Notes under the pieces: model-generated
The model's input: the letters and a program-made list of their open reading frames with translations, nothing else
What the model was told of the DNA's origin: nothing
Databases searched by the model: none
Made by a program: the position numbers and the translations under genes
In this document: piece by piece, positions 11,249-21,807 of the stretch
Layout of the letters: each line of letters begins with the position of its first letter
Position numbering within the stretch: position 1 is the stretch's first letter
Assembly (NCBI GenBank): GCA_028283855.1
Contig: JAPWJX010000009.1
Coordinates: 62,001-126,000 of the forward strand
Direction of reading: 5' to 3'
DNA length: 64,000 nucleotides
Source of the DNA: Verrucomicrobium sp.
GTDB taxonomy: Bacteria; Verrucomicrobiota; Verrucomicrobiia; Methylacidiphilales; GAS474

Positions 11249-13825
11249 GTGCAACGGCGCGCAGCGGGCTCGACCCTCCTCATCACCCTTTTCTTCATCA
11301 GCCTTATTTCGGTGCTGGTCGTCGGCTTCCTCTCCAACATGGAGATGGAATTGGGCGCTTCCCACTCCCATTTGGACGGCGTTCTGGCGGAGGTCTATGC
11401 CGAGGCGGGATTGGACACCGGCTTAAGCGGAATGGCCGCGGCGCTGGGGACGACGAACACGGCCTGGATTTCCGGCCCAGGACGCCTGGCGGCCTTTCCC
11501 ACCCGGACGGAAAACGGGCTGGGGACGATGACGGGGACGAACGCGGTGGCCCTTTCCTCCGGCGCCGCGCCGGGGAACGCCGGTCCGGACGAGGCGGCGG
11601 AACTCAACCCCTCCTTCCTCCTGCGGCCACGGGTTGGCCTCGTTTCTCCCTCCGGCGGCTCGATGCGGGCGGGATGGATCTACGTCCTCAAACTGGGCGG
11701 AACGGCTGCGAATTTGCCCCCCTACGACCCGCAAAACCCCGTGGTGGGCCGCTACGCCTACTGGGTGGACGATGAGGGGGCGAAGATCGACCTGAACACG
11801 GCGGCCCGGCGGGAGAACGGCCTTTCCGCTTATCCGGCGCAGCCGGGGAACGTGGCCCTGATGGTCCTGCCCGGCCTGGGGCTGGAGCAGGTGGAGGCGG
11901 TGACGAATGCGCGGGCGGTCCGGCCCTTTGAGTCGGTCGCGGAAACGGCCCGCCTGCCGGGCATGGAGCGGGTGGTTGCCACGAACCGGTTTTCCCTAAC
12001 CGCCTTCAACCACGCGCCGGAGCGGAACATGTTCGGCGAGGCGCGCATCGTCCTGACCACGCGGGCGGGGATGACCAACGGGCTTTCGCCGCTGTTCCTG
12101 GATATCCTGCGCTCTCCGGACGCCGATCCGGGTTCCCTGCAGAACCTCTCCCCGGACGGGGTGAACCGGACGCTCTCCCTGCTTACCAATGAATTGGCGC
12201 GTCCGCAATGGCCGTTCCTGCCGCCGGACCGGCAGGCCTTCGGCGTAAAGTATCAACTGAGCGCGGCGGGACGGAGCGGTTCCGACGTGTTGCAGATGGC
12301 CGTCGACATCATCGACTACGTGCGGAGCGCGGAATCGGCCCTTCCGTCCATCGAGCCGCTCCGTCTGGATGACGAGACGCGCGGCCTGCCCTGGAGCGGC
12401 ACGGGCGGCAACCGGCTGGGCGTGGGCCGCGCCCCGCGCGTGGCGGAAATCGGGGCGGCCCGGGACGGCGCATCGCTGGTTTTCAAAATTCGGCTCTATT
12501 TGCCGCCGATTCCGCCGAACGGGGCGGGATGGAGCGGCATCGATTTGACGGCCTATCGCCTGGAGGTCGTTTCTTCCTCTCTGGACGCGGCGGCGCTCGC
12601 ACCGATCGCGGCGGGCGAGGTGAACGACGGGGCCGGGCCGTCCGTTCTGGCGCCCGGCCATTATGCCACGATCACGCGCCGCCTGAGCCTTGCCACCGTG
12701 CCGGGCTCCCTTAAGCAGCTGCGGGTGGTGCTCCTGGACGGTGCCGGCGGCGTGGTGGAGAGCGCGCCGTCGGTCGATCCCATCGACGCGCTGCCGGTGG
12801 CGGATTCCGCCGCGGCGATCGTTTCCGTTTCCGTCGACGATCCGATGGCCAATCGCCAAGCCGGGGATTTTCAACCCGGAACGGGAAACAGCTTTGGCCG
12901 GGACGGCGGCTCCTCCCGCGCCACGTTGGGAAGCGCGCCCGATCCCGCCTGCCGCCCGGCGCAGGACACCGGGCCGGACGGGAAGCTGGCCCTGGGCTAC
13001 GCGCTGCCCGCGCCGAAGGGCTCGGCCGCCAACCCTCTGGGCGTGGTCCGCTCCGTGGGGGAGCTGGGATATCTGCATACGGGCGTCTGTTCCGCCCATG
13101 GAGTGCGCGGGGCCCTTATTGGCACGCCGTGGCGCACGCTGCGCCTGCAGCCCCAAACGACTGACGACGGAGCCCGCTTTATCCCGGATTGGGCGGTGCT
13201 CGATCTCTTCGTCGCGCCCATGGGGGGAGAGGCGCCCTCGCCGCTGGTGCTGGTGACGAACGAGGTTTTCCACGGCACCAACGCCGTCGTCGCCGGGCGG
13301 GTGAACGTGAACGCCGACCTGGGGCTGAACGGGGCCGACGGAGCGTCCCTGACGCGGCCTTTGCCGGTGGCCGCGCTGATCGCGGGGGCGGTGGCGACCG
13401 CGCAGATCGCCGGAGGCGGCGAGCTGGGCATGCCGCTTTCCTCCAACGCGGCGCTTTCCCTGGCCGGCAACGTAGCCGGGCGGGTCCTGGCCTCCACCAA
13501 CCTGGGCGGCGTGGCGGAAGCGGGCGTGGCCTACCGGGTGGGTAACCTTGACCTCTACTCCTCGCCGGGACAGCTGGCGGAGATCAAGGGTATCGCCGAC
13601 GGCGGGGAATCTTCCGAGGAGCTGCTGCGGGAAATCCTTCCGCTGGCGACGGCGCGCGGCGACGTTTTCACCCTCTATGCCGTGGGCCAATCTCTTTCCC
13701 AGGATCGCCAGGGCCGGGTCCATGTCCAGGGGGAGCGGCGTCTCCGGCAAACGGTGGAGCGTTATCAGGACGGGGAGGGGAACAACCGCTTCCGGACGGT
13801 CGATTCGCGCATTTTGACGCCCTAG
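11249..13825 (+). CDS. GspK/PilX-like pseudopilin
   Basis: 858 residues from a GTG start. The N-terminus RRAAGSTLLITLFFISL is a prepilin-like leader followed by one hydrophobic helix. The segment ending VLPGLGLEQVEAVTNARAV is a helix-hairpin-helix region of the kind found in GspK, the minor pseudopilin at the tip of type II secretion pseudopili. The protein is much longer than Proteobacterial GspK (about 330), with a large extra C-terminal part. No other type II secretion gene is adjacent. Confidence 0.7.
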   Translation: MQRRAAGSTLLITLFFISLISVLVVGFLSNMEMELGASHSHLDGVLAEVYAEAGLDTGLSGMAAALGTTNTAWISGPGRLAAFPTRTENGLGTMTGTNAVALSSGAAPGNAGPDEAAELNPSFLLRPRVGLVSPSGGSMRAGWIYVLKLGGTAANLPPYDPQNPVVGRYAYWVDDEGAKIDLNTAARRENGLSAYPAQPGNVALMVLPGLGLEQVEAVTNARAVRPFESVAETARLPGMERVVATNRFSLTAFNHAPERNMFGEARIVLTTRAGMTNGLSPLFLDILRSPDADPGSLQNLSPDGVNRTLSLLTNELARPQWPFLPPDRQAFGVKYQLSAAGRSGSDVLQMAVDIIDYVRSAESALPSIEPLRLDDETRGLPWSGTGGNRLGVGRAPRVAEIGAARDGASLVFKIRLYLPPIPPNGAGWSGIDLTAYRLEVVSSSLDAAALAPIAAGEVNDGAGPSVLAPGHYATITRRLSLATVPGSLKQLRVVLLDGAGGVVESAPSVDPIDALPVADSAAAIVSVSVDDPMANRQAGDFQPGTGNSFGRDGGSSRATLGSAPDPACRPAQDTGPDGKLALGYALPAPKGSAANPLGVVRSVGELGYLHTGVCSAHGVRGALIGTPWRTLRLQPQTTDDGARFIPDWAVLDLFVAPMGGEAPSPLVLVTNEVFHGTNAVVAGRVNVNADLGLNGADGASLTRPLPVAALIAGAVATAQIAGGGELGMPLSSNAALSLAGNVAGRVLASTNLGGVAEAGVAYRVGNLDLYSSPGQLAEIKGIADGGESSEELLREILPLATARGDVFTLYAVGQSLSQDRQGRVHVQGERRLRQTVERYQDGEGNNRFRTVDSRILTP

Positions 13826-13934
13826 CAAACGGCGTACAGAGAGGCTGGGCGAAGTCCTCAATGCCAGAGAAACTGTTTAGGCCAAGTCGGTTGCGGACGT
13901 TGTGGCGACGCGGTAAGGATGGATTCCATCTTTC

Positions 13935-15167
13935 ATGAATGACTCGCTTTCGGCCCGCACGATGAATCCCGTCAACCGGGCCCGCTGGGCCGCTTCGACG
14001 CTTTTCCTCGTCGACGGCATGACCTTCGGCACCTGGGCGGCGCTTATTCCCGCGCTCCAGCACAAGCTCGATCTTTCCGTTAAGGAATTGAGCGGCGTCC
14101 TGGCGGGACTGGTAGTCGGCGCGCTGATCTCCATGCCGCTTGCCGGGCGGCTCATCGCGCGGAAAGGCAGCCATGCCGTCGCCGCCTTCGGCAGCTTCGC
14201 CTTTCCGGCCGGGCTTGTCCTCTTGGCGCTGGCGCCGAATTTCTACTGCCTAGTGGCCGCGGCGATCGTCTTCGGCGCGTGCAAGGGGATGCTGGACGTT
14301 TCCATCAACGCGCAGGGGATCACGGTGGAAAGGGCGGCGGGCAAGCCGATCTTTTCCTCCTTTCAGGCGTTCTGGAGCTTCGGCGGCCTGACTTCCGCCT
14401 TTCTCCTGAGCGTGGCGCTGCACCATGGAGCTTCCGCCACGATGCTGCTTGGAACCATGCCCGCCCTGCTCATGCTCATGGCTTTTTCGACGCGCGGCAA
14501 GCTGTTGGCCGATCCGCCGGCGCCCGTTGCGGCCAAGGCCAAGGAGAGCCGGACGCTCTCCCTGCCCAACAAGACGCTGCTGGAACTGGGGGGCCTGGCT
14601 TTTCTCGCCCTTTTCAGCGAAGGCGTGCTCCTGGATTGGAGCGCGGTCTACGCGCACAGCGTCGTCGGCGTCTCTTTGGTCGGCGCGCCGGTCGCCTTCG
14701 CCGTTTTTTCCCTCTCCATGGCGAGCGGACGCGGAGCGGGGGACTGGCTGCTGCATCGCTTCGGCGCGGTGCGGACGATGCGGTGGAGCGGCTGTGTCAT
14801 CGCCCTGGGAATGCTGCTGGCGGTGAGCTGGCACGCCTGGGCGGCCACGCTGGTGGGCTTCGCCTTGGTCGGCTGCGGCGTGGCGAACCTGGTCCCCATC
14901 ATTTTTGGCGCCGCGGCGCGGGCCCATGAGGAGGGGCCGGGCCCCGGCGTGGCCACGGTGACCACCATCGGCTATACCGGCTTTCTTTCCGGCCCGCCGC
15001 TCATCGGCATGCTGGCGGCCTGGGCGGGATTGCCCGCGGCGTTTTGCGTGGTGATCCTCTTTGGCCTGACATTGGCCACGGCGGGCGTCGCCACGATCCG
15101 GCCTGCCCGCCGGAAGGTGGCCTGTGCGCCTTCCCGCGAGGGAGCGGAGCCGCCCTGTCCGGTTTAA
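13935..15167 (+). CDS. MFS transporter
   Basis: 410 residues with about twelve hydrophobic segments. The loop between helices 2 and 3 carries GRLIARKGSHAV, a version of the MFS motif A. The overall layout resembles the sugar/drug exporter-like group (compare YbjJ-type carriers). The substrate cannot be read. The C-terminal tail is soluble and basic. It is monocistronic or coupled loosely to the anchored propeller gene that starts 68 bases downstream. Confidence 0.85.
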   Translation: MNDSLSARTMNPVNRARWAASTLFLVDGMTFGTWAALIPALQHKLDLSVKELSGVLAGLVVGALISMPLAGRLIARKGSHAVAAFGSFAFPAGLVLLALAPNFYCLVAAAIVFGACKGMLDVSINAQGITVERAAGKPIFSSFQAFWSFGGLTSAFLLSVALHHGASATMLLGTMPALLMLMAFSTRGKLLADPPAPVAAKAKESRTLSLPNKTLLELGGLAFLALFSEGVLLDWSAVYAHSVVGVSLVGAPVAFAVFSLSMASGRGAGDWLLHRFGAVRTMRWSGCVIALGMLLAVSWHAWAATLVGFALVGCGVANLVPIIFGAAARAHEEGPGPGVATVTTIGYTGFLSGPPLIGMLAAWAGLPAAFCVVILFGLTLATAGVATIRPARRKVACAPSREGAEPPCPV

Positions 15168-15235: not shown

Positions 15236-16336
15236 ATGGCCGCGGGGGTTGAAAAAACTGACAGGAAAGCAGGATGGATCGCGCTTTCCGTGTTCCTCGC
15301 CCTGGTGGCGGTCTTGTCGCTTTGGGGGCTGAGGGGGGTTTCGTCATCCCTTCGGCGCCTGCATTTGGCTCCCTTTCATCGTGAGGGAGTTGTCATTCCG
15401 CTGGGCCCGGAGGGAAGCGGCTATTCCGGGCGCATTTTGGAGCCGACGGTGGTGCGGGAAGGGGCGGATTTTTACGCCTGGTATTCCGGGCTTCCCTATA
15501 ACGGCGGCGGCTTGGACGAACATTGGAATGTCTATTATTCCTGGAGCCGCGATGGGAAAGTGTTCACGCCGGGTTCCCTGGCGCTGGCGGGAGCGTGGGA
15601 ACAATCCGTCGTTAAATCCGGGGCGATTTACTACATGGCCTATGTGCGGGCCAATGGATTCAATGTGCGCCTGGCCACCTCCGAGGATCGTCTGCATTGG
15701 GTCGACCGTGGGGAAATCGTCAATGCGAACGCTGCATGGACGAAGACCGGGCCGGGATTTGGCCCGCGGGAGCCGGATCTATTCAAGGACCCCGTCAGCG
15801 GGGATTGGTTTGTCTATTTCGGCGCGGCGGCAGCTGACGGAAAATATAAAATAGGCATGGCCCGGTGCCCGGCGGGAAAAAATCCGGCGCTTCCGGGGGA
15901 CTGGATCGTTCAAGCAACGCCTTTCTTTTCCCCGGACACCTCCCATGGCCGGTGGAACGACGGGGGGGACACGGAAAGCCCCTGCGTGGAATATTATCCC
16001 CGCCTGAAAAGGGGAGGGGTGTATCTGCTCTCCTTCATCGGTTACCGCCCGCTTCCGGCGGTTAACAAGAGTTGGCGCATCGGCTTGGCCGCCGCCTCTT
16101 CCCCGGAAGGTCCCTTTACCGAGATATGCTTCAATCCTATTTGCGAAGGAGGCCGTCCGGGGGCGTTCGATGAGAACATTGTAGGGGAGGTTTCCCACTT
16201 GGAGTATAAGGGCGTCTTTTACCTATATTATTCGGGGGGCAAAAAAAACGGAGCCAACCAAATCGGCCTTTTGACCATTCCTTCCCTGGACATGGCCGAA
16301 TGGATCGAACAGCCCTACGCCCTCAGGTCGAAATAG
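15236..16336 (+). CDS. Membrane-anchored five-bladed beta-propeller (GH43/GH130-like)
   Basis: 366 residues from the ATG at MAAGVEK, which puts one hydrophobic segment (about residues 13-32) at the N-terminus. The rest has the repeating blade pattern of glycosidase-like propellers (VREGADFYAWYSG, SGAIYYMAYV, REPDLFKDPVSGDWFVYFG, EVSHLEYKGVFYLYYSGG). Acidic residues sit at blade ends, as in GH43/GH130 clans. It may act on a glycan outside the membrane. Catalytic residues cannot be assigned with certainty. Its 3' end overlaps the convergent hydratase gene by 22 bases. Confidence 0.6.
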   Translation: MAAGVEKTDRKAGWIALSVFLALVAVLSLWGLRGVSSSLRRLHLAPFHREGVVIPLGPEGSGYSGRILEPTVVREGADFYAWYSGLPYNGGGLDEHWNVYYSWSRDGKVFTPGSLALAGAWEQSVVKSGAIYYMAYVRANGFNVRLATSEDRLHWVDRGEIVNANAAWTKTGPGFGPREPDLFKDPVSGDWFVYFGAAAADGKYKIGMARCPAGKNPALPGDWIVQATPFFSPDTSHGRWNDGGDTESPCVEYYPRLKRGGVYLLSFIGYRPLPAVNKSWRIGLAAASSPEGPFTEICFNPICEGGRPGAFDENIVGEVSHLEYKGVFYLYYSGGKKNGANQIGLLTIPSLDMAEWIEQPYALRSK

Positions 16337-17961
16337 GGGATCTGCTTTTTTCGGATCTCGTCGCGGGACTCTTCGTAGCCCGCGTCGGCGTAGCGCATGA
16401 CGCCCAGGGAGGTGTCATTGGTCAAACTGCGGCGAAGGCGCTCGTCGGCCTCTTCCGTGCCGTCGGCGACGAGGGTGACTCCCGCGCTGGTCATGTAGCC
16501 GCTGTATCCGCCGCCGCCTGAGTGGATCGCCACCAGGTCGGCCATGGAGGAGCAATGGAGCATGGCGTTGAGCAGCGGCCAATCGGCCACGGCGTCGCTG
16601 CCGTCCCGCAGATTCTCCGTCATGATGTGGGGATGGGCCATGGCGCCGGCGTCGAGATGGTCCCGGCTGAAGGCGACGGGGGCGCTCACGCGCCCCTCCC
16701 GCACCATCCGGTTGACTTCCAGGGCCAGATCGGTCCGCTCGCCGTGGCCGAACCAGCCGATGCGCGCGGGAAGGCCTTGGAAGGGGATGTGCTTTTTCGC
16801 CAATCCGATCCAGCGCACCGCCCCTTGGTTTTCCGCGAAGCGCTCCAGGATCATCTCATCGATGGCCGCGATGTCGGCGGGATCGCCGGAAAGGGCGATC
16901 CAGCGGAAGGGGCCGATGCCCCGGCAAAAGAGCGGGCGCAGGAAGGCTTCCGTGAAGATGGGGATGTCGAACGCCCGATGGACGCCTGCCCGTTGGGCCT
17001 GGCTGCGGATGTTGTTGCCGTTATCGAAGACGACGGAGCCCGCTTTTTGGAAAGCGAGCATCGCCTCGACGTGCAGGCGGATGGAGGCCAGCGCCTCCGC
17101 TTCCAGCCGCCGGGGATCGCTGCCGCGCAGGGCGGCGATGCTGGAGGGCGTGTGTCCGATGGGGATGTAGCCGTGGAGGAGGTCGTGGGCGGCGGTTTGG
17201 TCGGTCACCACGTCGGGGACGATGCCGCGCCGCAGGATCTCCGGGTAGACTTCGGCCGCGTTTCCCTGGAGGCCCACGGAGACCGGCTTGCGGTCCCGCA
17301 CCGCCTCCGCGATGAGGGAGAGGGCTTCGTCGAGCGTGTCGGCGCGGCGCTGGAGGTAGCCGATCTTTAGCCGCCGCTCGATCTTTTCCGGGTCGGCCTC
17401 AACGGCCAGGATGGCCGTCTCCGCCATGACGCCGGCCAGCGGCTGCGCGCCGCCCATGCCGCCCAGGCCGGCGGTCAGGACGAAGCGCCCGCGGAGGCTG
17501 CCCTGGAAATGCCGTTCGGCGATCCGCTGCAGGATTTCGTAGGTGCCCTGGATGACGCCCTGCGTGCCGATGTACTGCCAGGCTCCCGCGGTCAGGCCGC
17601 CCCAGCAAATCAGCCCCTTTTCCTCAAGGCGGTAGAAATGCTCCGGCGTGGCCCAGCGGCCCACCAGGTTGCAGTTGGCCATGACGACCAGCGGCGCCCG
17701 CGTATGCGTCTTGAGGACGCCGATCGGCTTGCCTGATTGGATGACCAGGGTTTCGTCTTCTTCCAGCGCCTGAAGCGCGGAGACGATTTGGTCGTGGGAT
17801 TTCCAATCGCGCGCGGCTTTGCCCAGGGAAGCGTAAACGACCAGGTCGCCGGGGCGCTCCCCGACGGCCAGGACGTTCTCAAGCAGCCTGAGCAACGCTT
17901 CCTGCCGCCAGCCTTTGCAGCGCAATTGGTTTCCCGAAGTGATCTGGAAGGTTCGATTCAT
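16315..17961 (-). CDS. Urocanase-family hydratase, probable thiourocanate hydratase
   Basis: 548 residues and clearly a urocanase-fold protein: NCKGW-like start (LRCKGWRQEALLRLL), the NAD+ site TAGLGGMGGAQPLAG (about 163-177) and FDNGNNIRSQA. The urocanase signature FQGLPARICW instead reads FQGLPARIGW, so residue 402 is Gly where canonical HutU has its hallmark Cys. The region HSGGGGYSGYM also differs from the canonical HHGGG form. With a non-MIO lyase and a DUF917 protein upstream, I infer that it hydrates thiourocanate, the ergothioneine-derived analogue of urocanate, using NAD+. It starts 83 bases inside the lyase gene. A divergent hutU is the alternative. Confidence 0.75.
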   Translation of the reverse strand: MNRTFQITSGNQLRCKGWRQEALLRLLENVLAVGERPGDLVVYASLGKAARDWKSHDQIVSALQALEEDETLVIQSGKPIGVLKTHTRAPLVVMANCNLVGRWATPEHFYRLEEKGLICWGGLTAGAWQYIGTQGVIQGTYEILQRIAERHFQGSLRGRFVLTAGLGGMGGAQPLAGVMAETAILAVEADPEKIERRLKIGYLQRRADTLDEALSLIAEAVRDRKPVSVGLQGNAAEVYPEILRRGIVPDVVTDQTAAHDLLHGYIPIGHTPSSIAALRGSDPRRLEAEALASIRLHVEAMLAFQKAGSVVFDNGNNIRSQAQRAGVHRAFDIPIFTEAFLRPLFCRGIGPFRWIALSGDPADIAAIDEMILERFAENQGAVRWIGLAKKHIPFQGLPARIGWFGHGERTDLALEVNRMVREGRVSAPVAFSRDHLDAGAMAHPHIMTENLRDGSDAVADWPLLNAMLHCSSMADLVAIHSGGGGYSGYMTSAGVTLVADGTEEADERLRRSLTNDTSLGVMRYADAGYEESRDEIRKKQIPYFDLRA

Positions 17962-19459
17962 AGGGAAAGGATGGGGAAAGATCGGAGGAGAGCTGCCGCA
18001 GCACGGCTCGGGCTTCCAGGATGTCGGGGGTAAGGGGGCGGTCATGGGCCAGCATCGGCACGCGGGCGCGGAGTGCGGCGTGTAGGCGGGCCGTTCCGGT
18101 GCCCAGGGCGAAGGGAGGCAGCAGGTCGACGGCCTGGGCGGCGTGGAGCAGCTCGATGGCGGCCAGCGACCAGAAGGAGTCGAGGATCGCCTCCAGCCGT
18201 TCCAGGACTAGGACGGAATTTGTGCCGATGTCCTCCATGTTCCCTGCCAGCGGGCTGAAGTCGGCGGAGACGGGCGCGGCCTGGCTGCGGATGTGGGCGT
18301 CGAGCGCGGCGAAGGTCTTTTGGATGGTGGCGAAGGCGAGCGTCTCCGGATTCGGCGCCAAAAAGCGGGGCAGGCCGTGCGGCCGGTCTTCCTCAAAGTG
18401 GCGCAGGCGGGCGGTGACCGCCCGCGAGGCGTGGGAAAGGGCCAGGCCCAGGCTTTCGACGGCCAGCGTCCCCGAGAGGTCGATCGAGGCGGCCGAGGCC
18501 ACGATCTCGCCGGTTTCCCAAAAGACGGCGGGGTTGTCGTCAGCCGTGTTGAGCCGGGAGGTGAGGGAGGCCTGGGCCCATTCCAAGGCGTCCCGGGCCG
18601 CGCCGTGGATGTGGAAGGCGGAGCGGAAGCTGAGGGGCTCGTGGATCCGGTCGGAGGCGGGGCGCCGTTCCAGCGCGCCGCCGCGGAGGAAGCTCCGGAC
18701 TCGCACCGCGCTGGCCCGGCTGCCGGGGGAAGCGTGGGACGCGTCGAAGCGGGCGTCGAGCGGGGAAAGCTCCGCCTGCCACGCTTCCAGGGAGAGGGCG
18801 TAAATCGCGTCGAGCGCCTCCAAGAGGCGCCCCGCCTCTTCCAGCCGTAAGGCGGCCAGGCCGACGGAAAGGGAATTGGAGCTGACGATGGCCAGGCCTT
18901 CCTTCGCGCCGAGGCGCAGCGGGGAGAGGCCCTTTTCCGCCAGGGCCTGCAGCGCCGGTTTTTCGACGCCTTCGACCCGCACGGTTCCTTCCCCCATCAT
19001 CGCCAGCCCGATGGAGGCCAGGCACCCGATGTCGCAGACGCCGACCGAGCCGCGCTTCGGCACCAAGGGGTGGATGCCGTGGTTCAAGAAGTCGCGGTAA
19101 AGGCGGACCGCCTGCACGCTTAAGCCCGCGCGGCCTAGAAGCGCCGTGTTCAGCCGCACCAGGAGGGCGGCGCGTGTCTCCTCGTCGGTCGCCCAGGGAG
19201 GAAGGCCCACGGCGTGGCTGTGTAGCAGCTTGCGGTTGAAGCCTTCGATTTCCCCCACCGGGATGCGGCGGTCGAAGTTGCGTCCCACACCGGTGTTGAT
19301 GCCGTAGTGGGGCTGCTCTCCCTGCGCCGCCTGCAGGACGACTTGGCGGGCCTGCTCGACCCGCTTCTCCGCCAAGGGAACGAACGAGACGGGCCGACGG
19401 TCCCGGGCCACCGCCACCACCTCTTCGATCGTCAGCGAGGAGCCGTCCAGGACGATCAT
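17879..19459 (-). CDS. MIO-less aromatic amino acid lyase family, probable ergothionase
   Basis: 526 residues with the histidine ammonia-lyase fold: HYGINTGVGRNF with the family Tyr (residue 52), LLHSHAVG, DDNPAVF and GNMEDIGT. The MIO-forming triad is absent. Where canonical HAL reads GSVGASGDLAP, this reads GSVGVCDIGCLA (Val-Cys-Asp at 141-143, codons 19031-19039). The canonical Asn of GLALINGTQ is Ser here (GLAIVSSNS). The MIO cofactor is needed to expel ammonia, whereas ergothionase expels trimethylamine from ergothioneine without it. That role fits the flanking DUF917 and urocanase-like genes. The start overlaps the DUF917 stop by four bases. Confidence 0.78.
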   Translation of the reverse strand: MIVLDGSSLTIEEVVAVARDRRPVSFVPLAEKRVEQARQVVLQAAQGEQPHYGINTGVGRNFDRRIPVGEIEGFNRKLLHSHAVGLPPWATDEETRAALLVRLNTALLGRAGLSVQAVRLYRDFLNHGIHPLVPKRGSVGVCDIGCLASIGLAMMGEGTVRVEGVEKPALQALAEKGLSPLRLGAKEGLAIVSSNSLSVGLAALRLEEAGRLLEALDAIYALSLEAWQAELSPLDARFDASHASPGSRASAVRVRSFLRGGALERRPASDRIHEPLSFRSAFHIHGAARDALEWAQASLTSRLNTADDNPAVFWETGEIVASAASIDLSGTLAVESLGLALSHASRAVTARLRHFEEDRPHGLPRFLAPNPETLAFATIQKTFAALDAHIRSQAAPVSADFSPLAGNMEDIGTNSVLVLERLEAILDSFWSLAAIELLHAAQAVDLLPPFALGTGTARLHAALRARVPMLAHDRPLTPDILEARAVLRQLSSDLSPSFPYESNLPDHFGKPIALQRLAAGSVAQAA

Positions 19460-20559
19460 GCGGCGCTTTGCCCGTCCAGGGCGTAGTCGGCCAGGTTGAT
19501 CCCCAGGGCCTTTTCGACCGGCGGATAGACCGTCGGGTCGGTCACGCTGGAGCTCATCGGCAGCAGCGATTTCTCGATGCGCAGCACCACGATTTCCGCT
19601 CCCACCTGGACTTGTCCGGCGCTGAGGGGGTGGCCCCCCAGGGTCAGGGTGGTGATCACGTCGGGATAGCTGGCGATCCGGCGCCCGTCGGCGTCGTCGA
19701 CCGCCATGTGCTCGTTCATCACGTGCAGGGTGACGCGCTCGCGGCCGGTCCCGACCTCGATGCGGCCGATGTCGAACGCCGCGTTCGTGTAGGCCACGTC
19801 CTTCGCGGTGACGGTGCCGCGGCCAATCAGGGTGCCGCCGGTATGGGAGAGGATCGCCTTCAACACGTCGGAGCCGCTTTCCTCCGCCTTCACGATCGCC
19901 TCGCCCAGGCGCAGGGCGGAGGTGATGCCGCCGATCGCGCCGTGCTGCTTCACGTAGGCGGCGTCGATCGGCAGGCGGGCGCTGGCGGCGAAGCCCCCCG
20001 CCTGGTCCGCCGCGGTCCGCAGGATCGCGGAGGTTTTCGCCACCGTGCCCCGGACGACGAGCTCCACGTAGGAGCCGGTCTCCCGCTTCCCGCCGACGAG
20101 CGTCTGCACCGTTTGCAGGTCCTTCCGGGAGGCCAGCCCCATCGCCCCCATGTCCCCGGTGGGGTGGGCGCGGATGTCGCCGGTGGCGTCGATGACTTTC
20201 AGGCCCAGAAGGGCGGCGGGAAGCCAGCCGTTGATCGAGCTGGACATGCCGTTTTGCGGGGTCATCACGCCGAAGATGGGGCGGTCGATCGCCTCCTGCA
20301 GCAGTTGCACCGCCTTGACGTAGTCGACGCCGAGCATCTGCCAGTCGGTCGTTCCGGCGGGAGCGCCGATAGCGGTCGTGGTCACAATGACGGCGTCGTT
20401 GGGGACTTCGCTCACGGGGACCAGCTCCGGCTGGCCGATGGCCACCGCCGCGCCGCCAATCTGCAGGCCGTGCTCCACCCATCCTCCGCCGCCGGAGGCG
20501 TAGATCGAGCCGCCTTTCACGGCCGCTTCGACGTCTTTCCGGGTCAAAATCCGACTCAT
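19456..20559 (-). CDS. DUF917 / S-methyl-thiohydantoin desulfurase family protein
   Basis: 367 residues. The N-terminus LTRKDVEAAVKGGSIYASGGGGWVE is characteristic of the DUF917 (S-Me-THD) family, which occurs beside hydantoinase-like and HutU-like genes. Family members include desulfurases of the thiohydantoin formed from thiourocanate. As first gene of the operon it would remove sulfur from 3-(5-oxo-2-thioxoimidazolidin-4-yl)propionate, leaving hydantoin-5-propionate on the way to glutamate. The role is inferred from family and context. There is no strong ribosome binding site. An AT-rich palindromic element lies about 50 bases upstream. Confidence 0.78.
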   Translation of the reverse strand: MSRILTRKDVEAAVKGGSIYASGGGGWVEHGLQIGGAAVAIGQPELVPVSEVPNDAVIVTTTAIGAPAGTTDWQMLGVDYVKAVQLLQEAIDRPIFGVMTPQNGMSSSINGWLPAALLGLKVIDATGDIRAHPTGDMGAMGLASRKDLQTVQTLVGGKRETGSYVELVVRGTVAKTSAILRTAADQAGGFAASARLPIDAAYVKQHGAIGGITSALRLGEAIVKAEESGSDVLKAILSHTGGTLIGRGTVTAKDVAYTNAAFDIGRIEVGTGRERVTLHVMNEHMAVDDADGRRIASYPDVITTLTLGGHPLSAGQVQVGAEIVVLRIEKSLLPMSSSVTDPTVYPPVEKALGINLADYALDGQSAA

Positions 20560-20610
20560 GGGAGGGGCAGCCTAACGAGAGAACGGAGTTGACGTCGAGT
20601 TATTTTCTAT

Positions 20611-20635
20611 ATAATCTATAGACTATAAATAGACT
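20611..20635. promoter_or_regulatory. Candidate operator upstream of the ergothioneine operon
   Basis: ATAATCTATAGACTAT at 20611-20626 contains the perfect palindrome TCTATAGA and matches the 18-bp palindrome at 21036 in 15 of 16 positions. ATAGACT occurs again 11 bases further on (20629-20635), one helical turn away. The element lies in an AT-rich pocket between the DUF917 gene and the rightward small genes, where promoters for both directions are expected. The regulator is unknown. Confidence 0.55.
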
Positions 20636-20741
20636 CTCTTCCTATTCGAAGCCGCAGGCCGCCGCTCCGTTTCCTTTGGAATCGTTCGTGCAGTGCCCGA
20701 GTGTCTTTCTTCAGTCCCTTTCTCCCGCCGAGCGGGATTCA

Positions 20742-20846
20742 ATGCGGGAGCTTTACTACGTGGCCTATCTTCAGGCCCTTAACGAGGTGAACCAAAACGG
20801 TTTGGATCACCTGGGACCGGAGGGTTTCCTTGGCCTCGACATCTGA
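20742..20846 (+). CDS. Possible small protein upstream of and overlapping yezD
   Basis: 34 residues from the ATG (MRELYYVAYLQALNEVNQNG then LDHLGPEGFLGLDI). The same frame is open upstream back to about 20622, so a TTG start at 20676 would give 56 residues including QCPSVFLQSLSPAERDS. Its 3' end overlaps the start of the YezD-like gene by 17 bases, suggesting translational coupling. I do not recognise the sequence. It is supported only by the open frame, its protein-like composition and its position. Confidence 0.35.
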   Translation: MRELYYVAYLQALNEVNQNGLDHLGPEGFLGLDI

Positions 20847-21036
20847 CTCCGCCACCACCAAGCCGGAGCGGACGGCCTCCCAGGCCGAGTTGGTCCGCCG
20901 GATCTTGCGCGCGCTTTCCGGCCTCGAATACGGCTCGGTGGAAATCGTCGTCCAAGACTCCAAGGTGGTCCAGATTGAGCGCAATCAGAAGTCCCGCTTT
21001 GCCCGTCCCCTGGAGATTCCCCCGCCGGGGATTTGA
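20830..21036 (+). CDS. YezD-family (DUF2292) small protein
   Basis: 68 residues from a TTG start with GGAGGG six bases upstream. The core LRALSGLEYGSVEIVVQDSK then VVQIERNQKSRF matches the YezD/DUF2292 family, small cytoplasmic proteins I know mainly from sulfur-assimilation and sulfonate operons. Their biochemical role is unsettled. Here the gene sits between two copies of a palindromic element, facing away from the ergothioneine operon. This supports sulfur-linked control of the locus. The nonpolar N-terminal 15 residues vary in the family, so the start is uncertain. Confidence 0.75.
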   Translation: MASTSDSATTKPERTASQAELVRRILRALSGLEYGSVEIVVQDSKVVQIERNQKSRFARPLEIPPPGI

Positions 21037-21053
21037 ATAGTCTATAGACTATT
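21036..21053. promoter_or_regulatory. Perfect 18-bp palindrome, candidate operator
   Basis: AATAGTCTATAGACTATT is identical to its own reverse complement. It begins on the last base of the YezD-like stop codon and lies 165 bases upstream of the Met/Cys-rich gene. It shares 15 of 16 central bases with the element at 20611. A dimeric repressor or activator, possibly of the Rrf2 type, is inferred from its symmetry. No regulator gene is next to it. Confidence 0.6.
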
Positions 21054-21218: not shown

Positions 21219-21641
21219 ATGAATTCGATGATGACGATGGACCGCGCGATGGGCATGCCCATGCAGGGCGGAATGAACAACATGATGATGGTCCCCCGCT
21301 GCACGCTCAAGATGGAGAAGTGCGAGAACGGGATGAAGATGATGGCCTCCTGCAAGGACGCCGCCGCCATGGCCATGATGAAGAACCTCTGCACCATGCT
21401 GGACGGCGGCATGATGAGCTGCCACATGCTGATGAACGGCATGATGGTGATGGCCTGCAACATGACCATGGGCGTCTGCAAGTGCGAGATGACCGCCGAA
21501 GGCATGTGCTGCACCTGGACCAGCGAAGACGCGAAGTGCTGCCAGATGATCCAGGAGTGCTGCGACTGCATGACGGCGATGATGGCCTGCGGCTGCACCT
21601 GCTGCGTCTGCATGAACGGCACGCCCGTTTGCTGCTGCTAA
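21219..21641 (+). CDS. Met/Cys-rich protein, putative thiophilic-metal or sulfur-storage protein
   Basis: 140 residues from an ATG with a good ribosome binding site (CCAAGGAGAAC, seven bases away). The frame continues upstream, but only this start has a site. By my count 35 residues are Met and 23 are Cys, 41 percent of the protein. Met dominates the N-terminal half and Cys pairs or triplets dominate the C-terminal half, which ends in three Cys. Two halves look duplicated. There is no signal peptide, so it should be cytoplasmic. It could chelate Cu(I), Zn or similar metals, or serve as a reduced-sulfur store. A strong terminator follows. The frame is not a low-complexity accident, since codons vary normally. 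Confidence 0.85.
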   Translation: MNSMMTMDRAMGMPMQGGMNNMMMVPRCTLKMEKCENGMKMMASCKDAAAMAMMKNLCTMLDGGMMSCHMLMNGMMVMACNMTMGVCKCEMTAEGMCCTWTSEDAKCCQMIQECCDCMTAMMACGCTCCVCMNGTPVCCC

Positions 21642-21702: not shown

Positions 21703-21735
21703 GCGTCCGTGGATTGCCGAAAGAAAAAGGGGGGG

Positions 21736-21807
21736 AGCCGCTTATCGGATTTGAACCGATGACCCACGCTTTACGAAAGCGTTGCTCTACCACTGAGCTA
21801 AAGCGGC
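21736..21807 (-). tRNA. tRNA-Thr(CGT)
   Basis: The reverse strand forms a full cloverleaf: acceptor GCCGCTT/AAGCGGC, D arm TAGCTCAGTGGTAGAGC, anticodon stem ACGCT/AGCGT with loop TTCGTAA, and T arm ATCGGTTCAAATCCGAT. The anticodon CGT reads the Thr codon ACG. The CCA end is not encoded. Confidence 0.95.

Follow-up and report, generated by a model that had tools for sequence, protein, structure and literature searches.

A predicted ergothioneine operon and its putative link to sulfur assimilation in Verrucomicrobium sp.

The window analyzed here, a stretch of 64,000 nucleotides from Verrucomicrobium sp. (G000:C9:62001-126000 of a 2.56 Mb genome that is 95.6% complete), contains three overlapping genes on the minus strand, which we read as an operon for the breakdown of ergothioneine, a widespread fungal and bacterial antioxidant. 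The substrate class and the initial three steps proposed by the original prediction are borne out consistently by family models, the nearest solved structures, diagnostic residues and the clustering of the genes, and the operon is a new member of an already known pathway, which is published and curated in NCBIfam. Taken as a whole, we consider it very likely that this is an ergothioneine operon, which was probably acquired, is probably switched by sulfur and serves mainly for sulfur scavenging. In the order of transcription (DUF917 protein, lyase, urocanase-fold protein) the genes are:

19456..20559, minus strand: predicted thiohydantoin desulfurase (DUF917, now S-Me-THD fold), operon gene 1, 367 amino acids; assigned by NF058529 and Pfam
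17879..19459, minus strand: predicted ergothionase (ergothioneine trimethylammonia-lyase) with the fold of histidine ammonia-lyase (HAL), lacking the 4-methylideneimidazole-5-one (MIO) triad, 526 amino acids; assigned by the 6s7j match, loop and tree
16315..17961, minus strand: predicted thiourocanate hydratase, urocanase fold, 548 amino acids; assigned by NF058530 and the 7ned match

The overlaps of 4 bases between the desulfurase and lyase genes (ATGA, 19456-19459) and of 83 bases between the lyase and hydratase genes (17879-17961) agree exactly with the earlier description of three same-strand genes, and a longer start of the hydratase open reading frame is possible at 18045. In the proposed mechanism the ergothionase would take trimethylamine off ergothioneine to yield thiourocanate, the hydratase would convert thiourocanate to thiohydantoin-5-propionate and the DUF917 enzyme would release the sulfur as sulfide, leaving hydantoin-5-propionate. 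This product would then be excreted or handled by pyrimidine or purine amidohydrolases of the host. The three-enzyme module would have been gained by horizontal transfer into a lineage otherwise lacking it, and an operator in the promoter region, common to the cysH-cysD divergon, would switch the operon with the sulfur supply, mainly for sulfur scavenging.

Family models and diagnostic residues

The cluster comparisons are based on the 80 best loci, nearly all of them titled Bacillota or Pseudomonadota, plus a few plasmids; in these sampled loci the lyase, hydratase and desulfurase genes co-occur across both groups. The desulfurase of the window scored 575.9 bits against the NCBIfam model NF058529 (thiohydantoin desulfurase), passing the equivalog cut-off of 440, and contains the Pfam domains S-Me-THD_N and S-Me-THD_C. 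It is 57-68% identical to nearly all desulfurases of other bacteria that adjoin genes for the hydratase, ErtD (hydantoin-5-propionate amidohydrolase) or ErtE (N-carbamoylglutamate amidohydrolase; both names from NCBIfam), and 45% identical to the cluster-linked desulfurase of Deinococcus. The model score, domains and neighborhoods support the assignment of the DUF917 protein as the thiohydantoin desulfurase of the ergothioneine pathway.

The assignment of the urocanase-fold protein as a thiourocanate hydratase is likewise supported. It passed the equivalog cut-off of NF058530 (979.6 bits, cut-off 930), and its best match among solved structures is 7ned with 847 bits, compared with 634 bits for the urocanase 1x87. 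The urocanase Cys is indeed missing, as the protein reads ARIGW where 1x87 reads ARICW. Furthermore, 63 of 66 positions that are near-invariant in 80 cluster-linked thiourocanate hydratases and unlike urocanase are kept. In the tree, zero distance separates 7ned from the L023 hydratase; this locus is from Paenibacillus sp. Root444D2, and its cluster additionally encodes a lyase, a desulfurase, a hydantoinase and a carbamoylase.

For the lyase, the best match among solved structures is the ergothionase 6s7j from Treponema denticola (316.7 bits, phmmer), followed by a HAL with 190 bits; alignment to characterized proteins, the check proposed at the outset, therefore leads to 6s7j and 7ned and not to HutH or HutU. 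The lack of the MIO triad was borne out: the loop reads GSVG-VC-D, one residue shorter than GSVG-ASG-D of HutH. The T. denticola ergothionase (6s7j, 6s7q) shares the HAL fold and has a loop of the same shortened length (SSIG-EG-D), which also matches cluster-linked ergothionases. Y52, K381 and E409 of the lyase align with Y53, K383 and E411 of the T. denticola enzyme, which we take to be its catalytic positions. Of 105 positions that are conserved across 30 rows of ergothionases, the lyase keeps 90, with 17 of them absent from three HAL sequences. Relative to the T. denticola enzyme the lyase is nevertheless divergent, with VC in place of EG in the loop and the unusual substitutions weighed below. 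A position among the MIO enzymes had been named as evidence to the contrary; in the tree the lyase falls on the ergothionase side of 31 rows (support 93/72), apart from the HALs, on a long and isolated branch whose exact place within this side is unsettled. Structure match, loop and tree thus support a MIO-less ergothionase with predicted activity on ergothioneine.

The five-step ergothioneine catabolic pathway of Paenibacillus was reportedly reconstituted by Beliaeva, Leisinger and Seebeck in 2021 (doi 10.1021/acschembio.0c00968). Ergothionase, thiourocanate hydratase and thiohydantoin desulfurase are encoded together there as in the window, and the desulfurase and hydratase are 66% and 68% identical, respectively, to those of Paenibacillus L023. 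In contrast, the gene order is hydratase-desulfurase-lyase in the Paenibacillus pathway and desulfurase-lyase-hydratase in the window, and the window cluster has neither ErtD nor ErtE, none being recognized among the homologues in the genome. The pathway publication is cited in PMC9732360.

Palindromes and proposed sulfur control

The region upstream of the operon contains the following features:

20610..20627: palindrome TATAATCTATAGACTATA, an inverted repeat, predicted operator site 1, located in AT-rich DNA upstream of the desulfurase gene
20830..21036, plus strand: small DUF2292 (PF10055) gene, divergent from the operon, between the palindromes, start codon uncertain; Pfam 60 bits, cut-off 22
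21036..21053: perfect palindrome AATAGTCTATAGACTATT, predicted operator site 2
21219..21641, plus strand: Met/Cys-rich open reading frame, 35 Met and 23 Cys in 140 amino acids; no Pfam match
21734-21807, minus strand: tRNA-Thr gene, 3' end towards the operon region

Palindrome 1 is flanked by the divergently oriented desulfurase gene and a plus-strand open reading frame, and the G+C content there drops to 0.24 (20601-20650) compared with 0.66 for the window, and palindrome 2 follows the DUF2292 gene and precedes the Met/Cys-rich frame. In the 2.56 Mb genome, 20610-20627 and 21036-21053 are the only sites within three mismatches of ATAGTCTATAGACTAT. The relaxed form TAGYC-N4-GRCTA has three genomic sites, namely site 2, one on contig C7 and one on contig C3, and the latter (G000:C3:1312489) separates a cysH-type gene from a divergently transcribed cysD-type gene. 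Four of the genomes of the same order that have the pattern TAGYCNATAGRCT (G266, G421, G427 and G481) carry it at this cysH-cysD position as well. As the order has further matches at unrelated places and a backward control pattern gave 14 matches in the genome of the window, the pattern alone is not specific; it is the recurrence at cysH-cysD, and not the pattern itself, that carries the regulatory argument. The site on C7 reads TAGCCTTCAGGCTA (G000:C7:8958-8971).

By sequence similarity, the operon region and the cysH-cysD divergon thus have in common the predicted operator palindrome of a proposed sulfur-assimilation regulon of this order. The recurrence of the palindrome form between cysH and cysD suggests control together with sulfur assimilation, and since the palindrome points in this direction, the operon probably mainly scavenges sulfur. 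Together with the missing dedicated late steps described below, the predicted operator makes sulfur scavenging probably the best-supported physiological role. The original prediction had named ergothioneine as a source of sulfur and glutamate; the palindrome common to cysH-cysD supports the sulfur part indirectly, whereas use as a glutamate source is unsupported, given that neither a dedicated ErtD nor a dedicated ErtE turned up. Rather tentatively, the operon may be a stand-alone module, in which an acquired three-enzyme desulfuration came under a sulfate-assimilation operator of the host, together with the DUF2292 gene and the Met/Cys-rich protein, so that sulfide would be harvested and the carbon skeleton discarded. 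The position of the Met/Cys-rich frame suggests that it belongs to the same regulon, and its product may be involved in metal binding or sulfur storage. The predicted operator provides a directly testable tie between ergothioneine breakdown and sulfur nutrition.

With regard to other forms of control, a comparison of the region with Rfam revealed no riboswitch. A candidate regulator for the palindrome would be a protein of the Rrf2 family; the genome encodes one, but it is located elsewhere, and the idea was not retained. The literature on DUF2292/YezD yielded nothing usable.

Distribution and acquisition

The pathway is very rare in the bacterial group of the host. Among 388 genomes sampled from the phylum, only one reached the desulfurase model, and a genome of the same genus (G078) was negative, which is why we assume that the operon was probably acquired. 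In trees of the 80 best loci, in which other phyla are hardly represented, the desulfurase and the hydratase of the window take a basal position in the Pseudomonadota group. The tRNA-Thr gene was suggested as an integration site by its adjacency and was rejected, as no repeat of the tRNA 3' end is present in the window. Standard ergothioneine synthesis is not evident in the genome: a search for EgtD gave no match, but this negative is weak, because control genomes likewise had no match over the cut-off.

A scan of species-representative genomes with the desulfurase alignment found 508 candidate loci (relatives at E <= 1e-3), for which pathway membership is not certain in every case; a single-protein scan of the genome collection with the lyase found no relative. 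This number of loci contrasts with the description of ergothionase as limited to a few genera (PMC13405746, 2026). With the copy in the window, the pathway now reaches a genus that has methanotroph-like relatives within its order, and a PF02461 gene (ammonia or particulate methane monooxygenase, AMO/pMMO) was found in the same-order relative L134.

Fate of the carbon skeleton and alternative substrates

Several observations weigh against an acquired and sulfur-switched ergothioneine operon. The lyase deviates at 15 of the 105 near-invariant ergothionase positions, including R->H242, Q->H273 and D->E274, and for this reason its efficiency is uncertain. In base composition the operon does not stand out as foreign, and a linked, dedicated uptake gene is missing. 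In addition, the palindrome pattern was picked after the sites had been seen, which weakens its formal significance, and no sigma-70-like promoter was found at the palindrome region.

The alternative that survives best concerns the later steps. Known clusters usually carry ErtD and ErtE, and as originally predicted the hydantoin and carbamoyl steps lie outside the window, with no hydantoinase or carbamoylase match on its contig. A search of the whole genome for hydantoinases and hydantases found no dedicated ErtD or ErtE, and the matches lie away from the operon; this absence is not absolute, because the genome is 95.6% complete. The candidates are a dihydropyrimidinase, which matches TIGR02033 with 557 bits, and an amidase on contig C5, where an NCS1-type permease and dehydrogenase genes are also located, and an allantoinase and two amidases on contig C4 next to ureide and deaminase genes. 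Judged by their open reading frames, the two loci appear to encode reductive pyrimidine catabolism and purine/ureide catabolism, respectively. A further hydantoinase match, which has a carA-type gene as its neighbor, resembles a dihydroorotase. If the host dihydropyrimidinase, allantoinase and Zn-dependent carbamoylases completed catabolism to glutamate, ergothioneine would be a carbon and nitrogen source. The dihydropyrimidinase and the three hydantase-family amidases would be available for this purpose, and in the 2021 reconstitution the late enzymes are reported to resemble uracil-catabolic hydrolases. However, the candidates appear to belong to other catabolic loci, most clusters elsewhere keep genes of the ErtD/ErtE type beside the operon, and the scores are far below the cut-offs (202-263 bits against the ErtD models with cut-offs of 600 and 650; 268-357 bits against the ErtE model with a cut-off of 520). 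Missing the ErtD cut-off alone is no proof, because the in-cluster hydantoinase of L032 also stays below it with 487 bits. On balance, we regard complete catabolism to glutamate as unlikely, though still worth considering.

Three-enzyme modules have a precedent, because several clusters of Paenibacillaceae and Bacillaceae (L049, L064, L071, L072 and L076) also possess the hydratase, desulfurase and lyase set without neighboring ErtD/ErtE. Unlike the window operon, to which none of the following is linked, these clusters encode ABC-transporter components including an OpuAC substrate-binding protein; most of them add an IclR-type regulator and a luciferase-like monooxygenase, and some a DUF427 gene. 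This suggests an alternative downstream route there.

It would also be conceivable that a different 2-thioimidazole betaine, such as selenoneine, has become the substrate of the lyase by drift, with the other two enzymes keeping their roles. The 15 unusual substitutions, the Cys in the loop that replaces the MIO and the long isolated branch are in line with such a drift, but the lyase keeps the presumed catalytic positions and 90 of the 105 conserved ones, both downstream enzymes are of the standard thiourocanate kind and the isolation may merely reflect missing close relatives, none of which was found in the genome collection. We therefore consider a drifted lyase improbable. Even less probable is the pathway variant for S-methyl-ergothioneine and S-methyl-thiourocanate. 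NCBIfam has close sister models for the S-methyl thiourocanate hydratase and the S-methyl thiohydantoin desulfurase (NF058532), but both proteins remain under these cut-offs (774.8 bits versus 880 and 286.2 bits versus 450) and pass the thiourocanate models, and 36 positions of the hydratase match thiourocanate hydratases, unlike urocanase and 8q9u, which we take to be of the S-methyl type; the variant was rejected on model scores and residues. An ordinary histidine utilization (hut) cluster, with which the lyase and hydratase share the folds of HutH and HutU, is next to inconceivable and was rejected on the same grounds, as the MIO triad and the urocanase Cys are missing, the lyase reaches 300 bits with a HutH cut-off of 539, cofactor, residues and substrate differ, and the operon has an extra DUF917 enzyme.

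The genome has no hut pathway at all, because its single PF00221 gene and its single PF01175 gene are those of the ergothioneine operon. The expectation that the genes would be misannotated as hut fails for the hydratase and the desulfurase, which NCBIfam names correctly; it could apply at most to the lyase, for which the HutH models stay under the cut-off, so that automatic annotation would probably assign a generic lyase name. In general, cluster-resident lyases are similar enough to HutH for misnaming.

Among the lyases of other bacteria, that of Sinorhizobium meliloti pSymA (L151 5001-6551) lacks the MIO triad and groups with the ergothionases, and it is annotated as hutH or histidine ammonia-lyase in several strains. 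The lyases of Brevibacillus ert clusters (L033 12487-13989 and L047 12504-14069) are likewise MIO-less, with a different loop sequence (GSLGVGDL), and are not part of the main group of ergothionases. The ergothionase of Burkholderia arboris (L013, around 13100-14761) seems to start with a signal-peptide-like stretch and may therefore be exported.

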